Shown: one piece after another, positions 22,886-25,622 of the stretch | Numbering within the stretch: position 1 is the stretch's first letter | Layout of the letters: the number at the start of each line of letters is the position of its first letter | Source of the DNA: a virus | Virus record (IMG/VR): IMGVR_UViG_3300044833_000038 | Location: 1-60,290 of that record | Reading direction: 5' to 3' (one strand) | DNA: 60,290 bases | Made by a program: the position numbers and the translations under genes | The notes under the pieces: generated by a model | The model's input: the letters and a program-made list of their open reading frames with translations, nothing else | Databases searched by the model: none | Told to the model about the DNA's origin: nothing

Positions 22886-23554
22886 CTAGGTGGTTTTCGC
22901 TCCGAAGCGCCTTGCGGCTTCGGCTGATCCGGCTGCTCCGGGTTTCGCCCCTGGCGGCGGCGGTGAGAACTGACCGGCGTTCTGCCAACGCTGACCAGGG
23001 GTGGCGCCTTGGGGCTGCTGAGCCCCGTACATCGCGGTGAGGTGTCCCATCACCATCGTTTCGTCCACAGCACCGTCGGCCCCCACCAACTTCGAGGGGT
23101 CCACGATGGCCAGGAACGCGTTCAACTTGTCTCCCTGAATGACTTGGGAGGCAATGGCTTTCACTTGCAGCTGCTGCATCTGCGGAAGATACTCGGCCCT
23201 CGCGGCCTCAGCTGCGGTCTTCGCGGCTTCTTTGCGGGCCGCGTCGAGCGCCTTGTCGCTGGCCGACATCTGCGCGGTCCGCAGCGCGTCGTTCTCCGTC
23301 TGCATGTCCTTGACCTGCTGCGGAGTTAAGCCGTTGAACCCCTTGACGGTGTCCTCGTGCTTTCTTGCATAATGCTGCCAGTAGGCCGTCCGCTGAGCCT
23401 CGGTCATCTCCACCAGCGGCGTGCCCTCGGGGAACCCCTTGTCCGCAGCGGGAGGTGCTGGCGCGGTCGGAGCTGCGGGCGCGGCAGGCGCTGGAGCTGG
23501 CGGACCGGGAACTGGCGGTGCTGCCGGTGGGGTGGGTGCAGCGGGTTGGGTCAT
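22886..23554 (-). CDS. Capsid scaffolding protein
   Basis: 222 residues. A Pro/Ala-rich N-terminal 40 residues lead to a long charged helix (DMQTENDALRTAQMSASDKA) and a C-terminal segment ending in GSAEAARRFGAKTT. This composition and the position just before decoration and capsid genes mark a scaffold that organises procapsid assembly. The ATG has AGGAGA upstream. Confidence 0.75.
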   Translation of the reverse strand: MTQPAAPTPPAAPPVPGPPAPAPAAPAAPTAPAPPAADKGFPEGTPLVEMTEAQRTAYWQHYARKHEDTVKGFNGLTPQQVKDMQTENDALRTAQMSASDKALDAARKEAAKTAAEAARAEYLPQMQQLQVKAIASQVIQGDKLNAFLAIVDPSKLVGADGAVDETMVMGHLTAMYGAQQPQGATPGQRWQNAGQFSPPPPGAKPGAAGSAEAARRFGAKTT

Positions 23555-23627
23555 GATTCTCCTGTGTCAGGAAACGAGGAACACCACCCATGCCAGGTGG
23601 GCGTTCAATCCCGCAGCGCGGGAAGAC
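23555..23627 (-). other. Intergenic hairpins between MuF-like gene and scaffold
   Basis: On the minus strand a CCCGC-GCT-GCGGG hairpin and a following CCACC/GGTGG hairpin lie between the two genes. No U-tract is obvious. They may dampen transcription or stabilise the scaffold/capsid message. Confidence 0.35.
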
Positions 23628-25622
23628 TTATGCAGCCTCGGTCATCGGCGTGAAGTACGGCACCGATTCACCATCGGCGGGGACCAGGACTGGTCCGAGC
23701 TCGTTGTAGGCGACGGTGTATCGGGTGCGCTTCAAGTCGGCTGCCGAATTGGAACCCGCCTCGGTCTTTAGCCGCTTGATGTCGGAGTCGTTCAGGTTAA
23801 GACCGGGATCATATGTCGCGGTCACCGGCGCAGACGTGCATTTACAGTTGCTAACCGTGATAGAATTGGCGCTGTACCAGCCCTCAACTGTTTCGAGGTT
23901 TAGAACATGCCCGCGCCATACCCCGACGCGTTTATCGATCAGTGTGTCGAGATGTACAGAGCTGGAAAGTCGTTCGCGAAGATCGGTGCCGAGCTTGGTA
24001 AAGACGGCGAATCTCTCAGGGTCGCGGTCAGAAACCGTGGGATCGAACTTCCGCGAAGGACATACCCAAGTACCCAGACCATTCCGATGCCCACCGACCT
24101 TTCCGGTCGTTACGCCGAAGGTCAGTCCGTCCAGGCGATGGCCAAGCATTACGGCGTCTCGCGACCGCTGGTCATTCGTTGGCTGAAGAAGCGCGGGTTG
24201 CCCATCCGAACCAGTCGAGAAGCCAGCCTGATCAAGGCGGCGGCGATGAGTCCGGCACAACGAGAAGCCCAGGCCGCCAACGCCCATGCTGCGACGAGGG
24301 GAAGGACCGTCGGCCGGGACGAGAAGTGGCGCCGCGCCGAGGCGATCGAGCAGCACGCCATCGCTGGCACGCGTCGCCGCAGCGCTGGTGAAATACTCCT
24401 CGGCCAATGGCTGCGTGAGCGCGGTATTGACTTCATCCCCGAAAAACGGGTCGACCGCTACAACGTCGACTTCGGAATTGAACCCGTCGCCGTGGAACTC
24501 CTCGGCGGCCACTGGCATTCGCAACCTAGTCGCCGACGCTTCCATGCCGAGCGCACGCACGACATCCTCAATGCGGGCTGGCACATGATCTTCATCTGGT
24601 CCGGTAACGACGCTCCGATCAGCCCTGACGGAGCTGACGAGCTTGTCTCCTATATTCAGGAGGCCCGCTTGCACCCAGCCACGGTCGGTCAGTACTGGGT
24701 GCTTCGGGGTGATGGAAAGCTGGTGGCCAGCGGCGGTGACGAGGGTGACAAGTTCACCCTCATAGTACCGCCGGTAACCGACCTGACTAGGAGGTCCAGA
24801 AACTAGCGTCCCCGGAACAACGCACCGTAAGTGTATCGGCCGCAACGTTTCTCGGTGATAGATCCGATCCGACGCCGCGACGCACAGCCCGCATACCCCG
24901 CCTGTGGAGAACTCTGGGTGGATGATGCGGCGGAACCCGATGATCCGGGCACCCGTGCGGGTCTTGGTTCGCGACCGGGTCGTGGCTTGGCCTTGATAGT
25001 CGATGATCGTCGCGTTCAAAGCTTGGTGCTCGGCGTCGCGCTGCGCGATCACCAGGTTGCCGTCCACAATGTCATCAAGACGGATGACCGAGGCCGCCCG
25101 CGCCCTGTCGCTGCTCGTACCGACTGACTCCGACCAGCGCAGCGTCCGCGCGGGCCGCTCAAGCAGCGATGCGTTGGTTGCGTCACTGGGTGTGACAGTG
25201 ACATCGATGTTCGGTTCGGTGTCCGACTCGCTGTAGGTGATGACCACCCGCTTAGCGTGTGGCACCCGGATGTCGTCGGGCAGCTTCGGCACGACAGCTG
25301 CGTTCACGCCCATCGACCGCAGCATCGTGGTCTGCGCTGCCGCCGCGGTCTGGGCGGTGGCCTTCTGCGCGGCCACCAGGATCGGGTCGGCCTGCTTCAC
25401 GAACGCGGCAACCTGGCGATCCTGATAGGGGTCGACTGGCAGCCACAACCGCTGCAGCACCGCCTTAGTGCGGGTAGTGATGCTCGCGATGGTCGCGGCG
25501 GTGGCTAGCGATACGCCGGCGACCGTGTACGCGACCGGGTCGGTGCCCTGGCTGGCCGCGATCAGCGCAGCCGCGGTCACCGCAGCGTCGGCCGGGGTGA
25601 CCGGTGCAGTCACGTCTGCCAC
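23628..25622 (-). CDS. MuF-like minor capsid / maturation protein interrupted by an intein
   Basis: 664 codons, GTG start at 25620-25622. Host protein residues 1-266 and 593-664 join to a 338-residue MuF-like head protein: GFRRIIHPEFSTGGVCGLCV, then ETLRPIHLR joined to CKCTSAPVTATYDPGLN. Residues 267-592 are an intein: block A CVVPGTLVSG, block B LSITPKHPVLTD (TxxH at T305/H308), C-terminal block VLNLETVEGWYSANSITVSN followed by Cys593. Splicing restores the PIH-x-RCxC zinc-like site usual in MuF proteins. Portal and MuF genes are separated here by two extra genes. The penultimate intein residue is Ser, not the usual His. Confidence 0.85.
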   Translation of the reverse strand: MADVTAPVTPADAAVTAAALIAASQGTDPVAYTVAGVSLATAATIASITTRTKAVLQRLWLPVDPYQDRQVAAFVKQADPILVAAQKATAQTAAAAQTTMLRSMGVNAAVVPKLPDDIRVPHAKRVVITYSESDTEPNIDVTVTPSDATNASLLERPARTLRWSESVGTSSDRARAASVIRLDDIVDGNLVIAQRDAEHQALNATIIDYQGQATTRSRTKTRTGARIIGFRRIIHPEFSTGGVCGLCVAASDRIYHRETLRPIHLRCVVPGTLVSGPPSQVGYRRYYEGELVTLVTAAGHQLSITPKHPVLTDRGWVQAGLLNIGDKLVSSVRADRSVVTGPDEDHVPARIEDVVRALGMEASATRLRMPVAAEEFHGDGFNSEVDVVAVDPFFGDEVNTALTQPLAEEYFTSAAATRASDGVLLDRLGAAPLLVPADGPSPRRSMGVGGLGFSLCRTHRRRLDQAGFSTGSDGQPALLQPTNDQRSRDAVMLGHRLDGLTFGVTTGKVGGHRNGLGTWVCPSRKFDPTVSDRDPERFAVFTKLGTDLRERLSSSVHLDTLIDKRVGVWRGHVLNLETVEGWYSANSITVSNCKCTSAPVTATYDPGLNLNDSDIKRLKTEAGSNSAADLKRTRYTVAYNELGPVLVPADGESVPYFTPMTEAA
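23858..23866 (+). promoter_or_regulatory. Candidate extended -10 promoter for the antisense endonuclease
   Basis: TGA-TAGAAT is an extended -10 (TGN plus TANNNT), 40 bases before the endonuclease ATG. It lies inside the intein's last codons. The complement ATTCTA belongs to Asn-Ser-Ile, where related inteins usually have Asn-Gly-Ile. No convincing -35 is seen; TTTACA is only 14 bases upstream. Confidence 0.45.
23907..24806 (+). CDS. Vsr-like (EDxHD) homing endonuclease, antisense inside the intein
   Basis: 299 residues. Two helix-turn-helix-like units come first: residues 21-48 (KSFAKIGAELGKDGESLRVA) and 72-100 (QSVQAMAKHYGVSRPLVIRW). A Vsr/PD-(D/E)XK-type nuclease domain follows at about 158-235: SAGEILLGQWLRERGIDF (E162), YNVDF (D188), VELLGGHWH (E197, H204), HDILNAGWHMIFIW (D219). 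The C-terminus GQYWVLRGDG fits this family. A GAGG ribosome site lies 8 bases before ATG. The whole gene is opposite the intein codons, so a cut-and-repair cycle would copy intein and endonuclease together. Orientation opposes the head operon, so it needs its own promoter. Confidence 0.85.
   Translation: MPAPYPDAFIDQCVEMYRAGKSFAKIGAELGKDGESLRVAVRNRGIELPRRTYPSTQTIPMPTDLSGRYAEGQSVQAMAKHYGVSRPLVIRWLKKRGLPIRTSREASLIKAAAMSPAQREAQAANAHAATRGRTVGRDEKWRRAEAIEQHAIAGTRRRSAGEILLGQWLRERGIDFIPEKRVDRYNVDFGIEPVAVELLGGHWHSQPSRRRFHAERTHDILNAGWHMIFIWSGNDAPISPDGADELVSYIQEARLHPATVGQYWVLRGDGKLVASGGDEGDKFTLIVPPVTDLTRRSRN

Follow-up and report, generated by a model that had tools for sequence, protein, structure and literature searches.

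A viral DNA record from IMG/VR (IMGVR_UViG_3300044833_000038), analysed here over its 60,290 nucleotides and called the window below, carries an intein with a putative endonuclease gene on its opposite strand. The best explanation, to which we assign a probability of roughly 90%, is that the intein is mobile and that its homing endonuclease is made as a separate protein from the opposite strand of the intein DNA. Comparisons among homologous sequences demonstrate the architecture, its conservation with selection on both strands, the existence of empty sites, and horizontal spread.

The intein resides in a minus-strand gene for a MuF-like minor capsid or head morphogenesis protein (23628-25622). 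The 664-aa open reading frame (ORF) matches PHROG families 1522 (head maturation protease, E=9e-49) and 15127 (head protein, E=2e-38). The N-extein (24825-25622, minus strand) is homologous to actinophage MuF proteins that have no intein, and the C-extein (23628-23846, minus strand) starts with CKC. In M. abscessus prophages, both exteins are covered by contiguous DNA. The 326-aa intein between them occupies 978 bp (23847-24824, minus strand), with Cys1 at 24822-24824 and Asn326 at 23847-23849, followed by Cys+1. These ends agree exactly with those given in a preliminary, sequence-only reading of the MuF gene.

The nuclease ORF is found on the plus strand (23907-24806). It consists of 299 codons and a TAG stop opposite intein Leu7, and thus both its start and its stop are inside the intein. 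Codon boundaries of the MuF and nuclease frames coincide, and the previously noted rule that residue k of the nuclease lies opposite residue 573-k of the head protein follows from the coordinates.

Distribution and spread of the arrangement

Antisense nucleases within MuF inteins occur at about 75 loci in phages and IMG/VR contigs. The homologous inteins keep the motifs of the plus-strand ORF, as expected under the sequence-only reading, to which inteins of equal length lacking these motifs would have been contrary. Hosts of the carrier phages belong to Actinobacteria, Enterobacteria, Vibrio, Pseudomonas, and Aggregatibacter. A tblastn search with the nuclease matched 129 phage records, and 20 representative phage regions were opened from these matches. 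They include regions from actinophages (Gordonia phages Malisha, Fosterous, Vivi2, Sedona, and APunk, and Rhodococcus phage REQ3), from phages of enterobacteria (Salmonella and Escherichia Guernseyvirinae, Pantoea AH01, Klebsiella RCIP0054, and Edwardsiella MSW-3), and from others such as Idiomarinaceae 1N2-2, Vibrio PvVp04, Aggregatibacter Aaphi23, and Pseudomonas CF23a. The nuclease is antisense within the MuF gene in every intact phage case opened except that of Acinetobacter phage IME285. This phage encodes a freestanding homologue (L019:455-1348) that converges on a MuF gene without an intein, with a 7-nt overlap at the end of that gene.

About 50-55 further loci with the same arrangement were found in IMG/VR, a search of genome contigs added only two, and scans for close relatives of the window gave one locus each. 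Spliced exteins inspected across a range of loci are all MuF-like, and some are fused to portal sequence. In three loci (L050, L052, and L057), the MuF domain is apparently fused to a portal protein, and the intein site is the same. The antisense nuclease has escaped annotation, in that its frame is annotated in none of the intein records opened.

At the level of sequence, homing is supported by two observations: the inteins are nearly identical although the exteins around them have diverged, and alleles that precisely lack the intein exist. Inteins of Guernseyvirinae share 95-97% nucleotide identity, compared with 66-72% for the N-exteins (for example, Snoke versus vB_StyS-sam). The presence of the intein is patchy, and an exact empty site is seen in fEg-Eco19. 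When the Snoke exteins are joined, they align in one piece (1-347) to this intein-less allele with 98% identity, and the join is exact.

A few loci have broken nuclease frames (AH01, KMB36, L052, L074, and GE_vB_M5), consistent with the decay of homing genes. In L008 and L052, stops interrupt the nuclease frame and the MuF frame is open, and L074 and the unverified L023 are broken more widely. The stop-bearing frames of these four loci are likely to be decaying nucleases, as homing genes predict.

The IME285 nuclease is possibly an ancestor of the intein-borne form, or possibly an escapee from it. Its freestanding position, convergent with and overlapping an intein-less MuF gene, lends some weight to the view that the locus is a cassette of two genes: the nuclease would first have been a freestanding neighbor of MuF, and expansion of the intein would later have covered it. 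However, IME285 could equally represent a secondary escape, and we hold this order of events to be a tentative possibility, less likely than not. The proposal concerns origin and not present function, and is compatible with the explanation that the present element is a mobile intein.

Far less probable is a system in which the inteins splice but the nuclease is retained for a purpose other than homing, such as cutting the DNA of competitors or regulating MuF by antisense RNA. Superinfection exclusion can involve freestanding phage endonucleases, antisense transcription could reduce MuF expression, and cleavage by the present nuclease is a prediction from its sequence. However, such roles fit poorly with the recent entry of almost identical inteins into exteins that have diverged, the patchy presence of the intein, the decay of some nuclease copies, and the containment of the entire nuclease gene within the mobile unit.

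The splicing element and the nuclease

The intein begins with CVVPGT and ends with VSN, which is followed by CKC. Residues C1, T39, H42, G49, and N326 are invariant in 42 homologues, and the +1 Cys is present in the intein loci listed. The penultimate residue is Ser, not His, in many homologues. Block B (TPKHP, T39-P43; 24696-24710, minus strand) contains the invariant T39 and H42. In an AlphaFold2 model of the intein, residues 1-60 and 290-326 have pLDDT values of 91-98, both ends fold as a Hint domain, and the best PDB matches of the splicing halves are inteins. The insertion lies within a conserved H..C.C motif of MuF, at the site H-x-[NR]^C-[KR]-C.

Model confidence falls below a pLDDT of 50 at residues 139-226 and 235-286. 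This low-confidence linker (residues 139-286; 23966-24410, minus strand) is opposite the helix-turn-helix (HTH) and linker regions of the nuclease and the start of its nuclease domain. No nuclease was found in the sense frame of the intein, the middle of which is modelled mostly at low confidence. Two phages have atypical insertions. In Rhodococcus phage REQ3 (L022), the intein-like insert seems to start with Ala, not Cys, and the nuclease ORF is shortened to 208 codons. Escherichia phage KMB36 (L021) has a related intein and antisense nuclease at another site of the MuF gene (STT^C versus HPN^C).

A nuclease-bearing insertion that is never spliced, comparable to the ShiLan domain, would have a minus-strand frame that is merely open and tolerated by MuF. 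The nearest published analogue does hide its nuclease in an unspliced insertion (PMC11855218), and the case for splicing made here is built from sequence and a structural model. Nevertheless, we judge this explanation to be quite improbable, given the invariant Cys1, TxxH, terminal Asn, and Cys+1, the high confidence of the Hint fold, the location of the insert inside the H..C.C motif, and the minus-strand constraint on the splicing blocks that is described below.

The plus-strand protein has two HTH units at approximately residues 7-43 and 65-95 (23925-24191, plus strand), as indicated by Pfam HTH matches and by helices in its model. Pfam also reports a match to the Vsr/DUF559-like domain MTES_1575 (E=1.4e-6), and the nuclease family profile matches the homing endonuclease I-Bth0305I (PDB 3r3p) with E values of 3.8e-6 to 6e-6. 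The AlphaFold2 model of the nuclease has a mean pLDDT of 87, and its best PDB fold match is the catalytic domain of I-Bth0305I (probability 1.00, though with an E value of only 1.2e-3). The Pfam and I-Bth0305I matches bear out the initial description of a 299-codon, Vsr-like ORF with two HTH units inside the intein.

Conservation in 43 nuclease sequences places the catalytic core at E162, YN.D188, E197, and R216 (24390-24554, plus strand). N186, D188, and E197 are each present in 43/43 sequences, E162 in 42/43, and Y185 in 42-43 of the 43, and position 216 is R or K in all 43. The catalytic set E162/D188/H204/D219, an EDxHD quartet proposed from the window alone, must be qualified because H204 (14/43) and D219 (6/43) vary among these nucleases. 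Thus, E162 and D188 stand, the other half of the quartet does not, and E197, N186, and R216 are conserved besides.

Selection and shared codons on the two strands

Over the region that matches the nuclease, the in-register antisense frame is free of stops in 74 of 77 loci, and the other antisense registers contain 2-47 stops. The three exceptions are the freestanding IME285 gene (L019), a match of 62 aa to a non-intein ORF that is apparently unrelated (L060), and a locus broken on both strands (L074). The codons TTA, CTA, and TCA, which produce reverse stops, were seen 0 times compared with 516 expected from local extein codon usage in 72 nonredundant loci (20,725 nuclease codons). These 72 loci are those whose intein is delimitable in the MuF frame, and the 77-locus scan shows the same result without that condition. 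Among the 34 nonredundant loci with less than 50% GC, there are 0 reverse stops, versus 345 expected. The freestanding IME285 nuclease has 12 reverse stops in 297 codons.

Substitution rates, with transitions counted, were determined for six disjoint Jerseyvirus/Kagunavirus pairs, where dNN/dNS reflects constraint on the MuF/intein strand and dNN/dSN reflects constraint on the nuclease strand. Values of dNN/dNS are 0.15 (0.11-0.21) for the exteins and 0.25 (0.06-0.70) for the C-terminal splicing block. In the middle of the intein, dNN/dNS is 0.64 (0.26-1.18), which is not significantly different from 1, and dNN/dSN is 0.14 (0.06-0.25). Selection therefore crosses over, acting on the MuF strand in the exteins and C-terminal splicing block and on the nuclease strand in the middle. 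Five other groups have dNN/dSN values of 0.09-0.43, and the purifying selection on plus-strand substitutions anticipated by the sequence-only reading is thus observed. Together with the retained motifs, this selection supports the proposal that one segment encodes a splicing element and a mobility enzyme in opposite directions.

Individual residues follow the same pattern. In 43 divergent nucleases, the plus strand has no variation at A126, N186, D188, or E197, and the minus-strand residues opposite the first three of these are free. The reverse is seen opposite the splicing blocks, where minus-strand Gly, His, and Thr are 100% conserved and the plus-strand residues are free. A high GC content makes it easy for an in-register antisense frame to remain open, and some of the loci have 60-69% GC, but a chance ORF whose conservation merely reflects the intein protein is ruled out for practical purposes by the stop depletion, which extends to the loci below 50% GC, and by the strand-specific substitution rates of the intein middle, and is further opposed by the residues fixed on the plus strand but mixed on the minus strand and by the agreement of nuclease profile and fold with I-Bth0305I.

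Some codons appear to serve both proteins. A dual element at 23892-23909 comprises intein block F (HVLNLE) on the minus strand and the Shine-Dalgarno sequence and ATG of the nuclease on the plus strand. The reverse complement of this block in the window is TTCGAGGTTTAGAACATG, which includes the Shine-Dalgarno sequence GAGG (23895-23898) and the nuclease ATG. The reverse of the variant HVYNLE, TTCGAGGTTATAAACATG, also provides a Shine-Dalgarno sequence and ATG. The nuclease start codon is opposite the block-F His in 42/42 alignable sequences, and a Shine-Dalgarno-like sequence precedes it in 47/55. The block-F Leu codon is CTC or CTT in 50/54 and CTG in none.

A second overlap consists of four doubly conserved codons (24486-24497, both strands) that encode nuclease VAVE (194-197) and intein FHGD (110-113). 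The intein FHGD is nearly invariant, and the opposing VAVE includes the invariant E197. Codon choice at both overlaps is skewed, with p values that overstate independence because the loci are related, though they span many divergent groups: the block-F His is CAT in 51/54 versus 149/369 in exteins (p=5e-15), Val196 is GTG in 39/40 versus 52/410 for other Val (p=1e-29), and Ala195 is GCC in 40/41 versus 233/641 for other Ala (p=5e-16). The idea that FHGD is purely a mirror image of the nuclease motif was rejected because Val196, Ala195, and Glu197 are nearly always encoded by one codon, unlike other Val, Ala, and Glu residues. At the VAVE position of the intein-less IME285, the codons are GTG GCG CTG GAA, and FHGD is not encoded opposite them.

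In Gordonia phages Lennon, Barsten, Nordenberg, Sitar, Thing3, and SchottB, the same MuF site is occupied by a different intein (L091:2372-3196 in Lennon and L092:2387-3211 in Barsten), which has an in-register antisense ORF for a LAGLIDADG-type nuclease (196 aa in these two). The ORF contains the motif AAFIDGEG and matches I-MsoI (E=4e-4) and the PHROG 5046 endonuclease family (E=2e-15), although its Pfam LAGLIDADG match is weak (E=0.26). Its dNN/dSN is 0.09 and its dNN/dNS is 0.71. No relatives of the ORF were found in the viral contigs searched. Judged by these matches, this case is apparently a second origin of the antisense-nuclease intein, with an unrelated nuclease. We think it probable that bidirectional inteins constitute a widespread class with at least two origins (Vsr-like and LAGLIDADG-type), in which block-F His and start codon, Leu and Shine-Dalgarno sequence, and VAVE and FHGD are shared and both functions are selected.

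Proposed mechanism and relation to known systems

We infer splicing, cleavage specificity, and plus-strand transcription and translation from these patterns, and propose that they operate as follows. The minus strand would be translated as a single MuF-intein precursor. Residues 1-65 and 290-326, the two Hint halves, would then remove the intein and join the MuF exteins at the H-x-[NR]^C-[KR]-C site. Apart from the vicinity of FHGD, the roughly 220 residues between the halves would be mostly a spacer whose frame is simply kept open. The plus strand would be translated independently, starting from the Shine-Dalgarno sequence and ATG antisense to block F, to yield a two-HTH, Vsr/I-Bth0305I-like nuclease. 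MuF alleles without the intein would presumably be cut by this enzyme at the intein site, and the intein, with both genes, would be copied in when the break is repaired.

The neighboring head genes in the window are all on the minus strand. The suggestion of the sequence-only reading that the nuclease is timed independently of capsid synthesis needs qualification, as no sigma-70-like promoter was found at 23300-25000 of the window, although actinophage promoters need not match this consensus. In Klebsiella RCIP0054 (L013:147-1888) and Edwardsiella MSW-3 (L015:626-1857), small plus-strand genes form a run that terminates at the 3' end of MuF and is directed towards the nuclease gene. Therefore, the nuclease could be transcribed by read-through in these two phages.

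Textbook inteins have their endonuclease inside the spliced polypeptide. The mobility enzyme proposed here is unlinked from the host protein and located on the other strand, such that the same codons would evolve under splicing function on one strand and nuclease function on the other. The result is a long antisense protein overlap that is conserved from Gordonia to Salmonella phages. Surveys that consider only the sense frame of inteins would score such elements as endonuclease-less. The system is testable in laboratory phages: an Asn substitution at nuclease residue Asp188 (GAC to AAC), for example, leaves the MuF-strand residue unchanged as Val (GTC to GTT).

Dassa et al. in 2009 reportedly described Vsr-like endonucleases encoded as freestanding genes between the halves of fractured genes that carry split inteins. 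Such genes share with the present loci a Vsr-like nuclease that is tied to inteins and is a separate protein. However, their nuclease is intergenic between gene halves, whereas here it is antisense over a continuous intein. Gosselin, Arsenault and Gogarten are said to have described, in 2025, actinobacteriophage inteins with non-canonical architecture from the same phage group. Their preprint is cited for overlapping reading frames in actinobacteriophages (PMC11855218). Our literature search found no report of an antisense nuclease inside an intein; the Gosselin 2025 preprint, which was outside this search, may already cover some actinophage cases, and the proviso of the sequence-only reading that a similar actinophage intein may have been reported before therefore stands.

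Canonical inteins, such as those of mycobacteriophage TerL (PMC5050341), likewise have a Hint domain, reside in a conserved motif of a phage gene, place the nuclease between blocks B and F, and spread into intein-less alleles. They differ in that their nuclease is in frame, whereas the nuclease described here is a separate opposite-strand protein, and the excised intein would have no nuclease domain. With I-Bth0305I and other EDxHD (Vsr-like) homing endonucleases (PMC3943268), the nuclease shares a catalytic domain, as judged by profile and fold, and an elongated DNA-binding region. Those enzymes are borne by group I introns, whereas this one is borne by an intein, carries HTH modules, and does not conserve the His and second Asp of the motif.

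Nuclear group I introns of myxomycetes also carry antisense homing endonuclease genes within a self-splicing element, and both expression from the antisense strand and cleavage have been shown (PMC9548176). In those introns, the gene occupies a peripheral loop of an RNA element and the other strand does not code for protein, whereas in the MuF inteins both strands code for protein, codon for codon. The ShiLan domain, reported in 2025, is an unspliced insertion in a phage methylase that contains an out-of-frame, same-strand HNH endonuclease (PMC11855218). Both systems insert into a phage gene, encode a nuclease in another frame, and leave the host frame open. However, the ShiLan nuclease is an HNH enzyme on the same strand and no splicing domain was found with it, whereas the nuclease described here is Vsr-like and lies on the opposite strand of a clear intein. 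In further contrast to ShiLan, the MuF inteins span hosts from several bacterial phyla.
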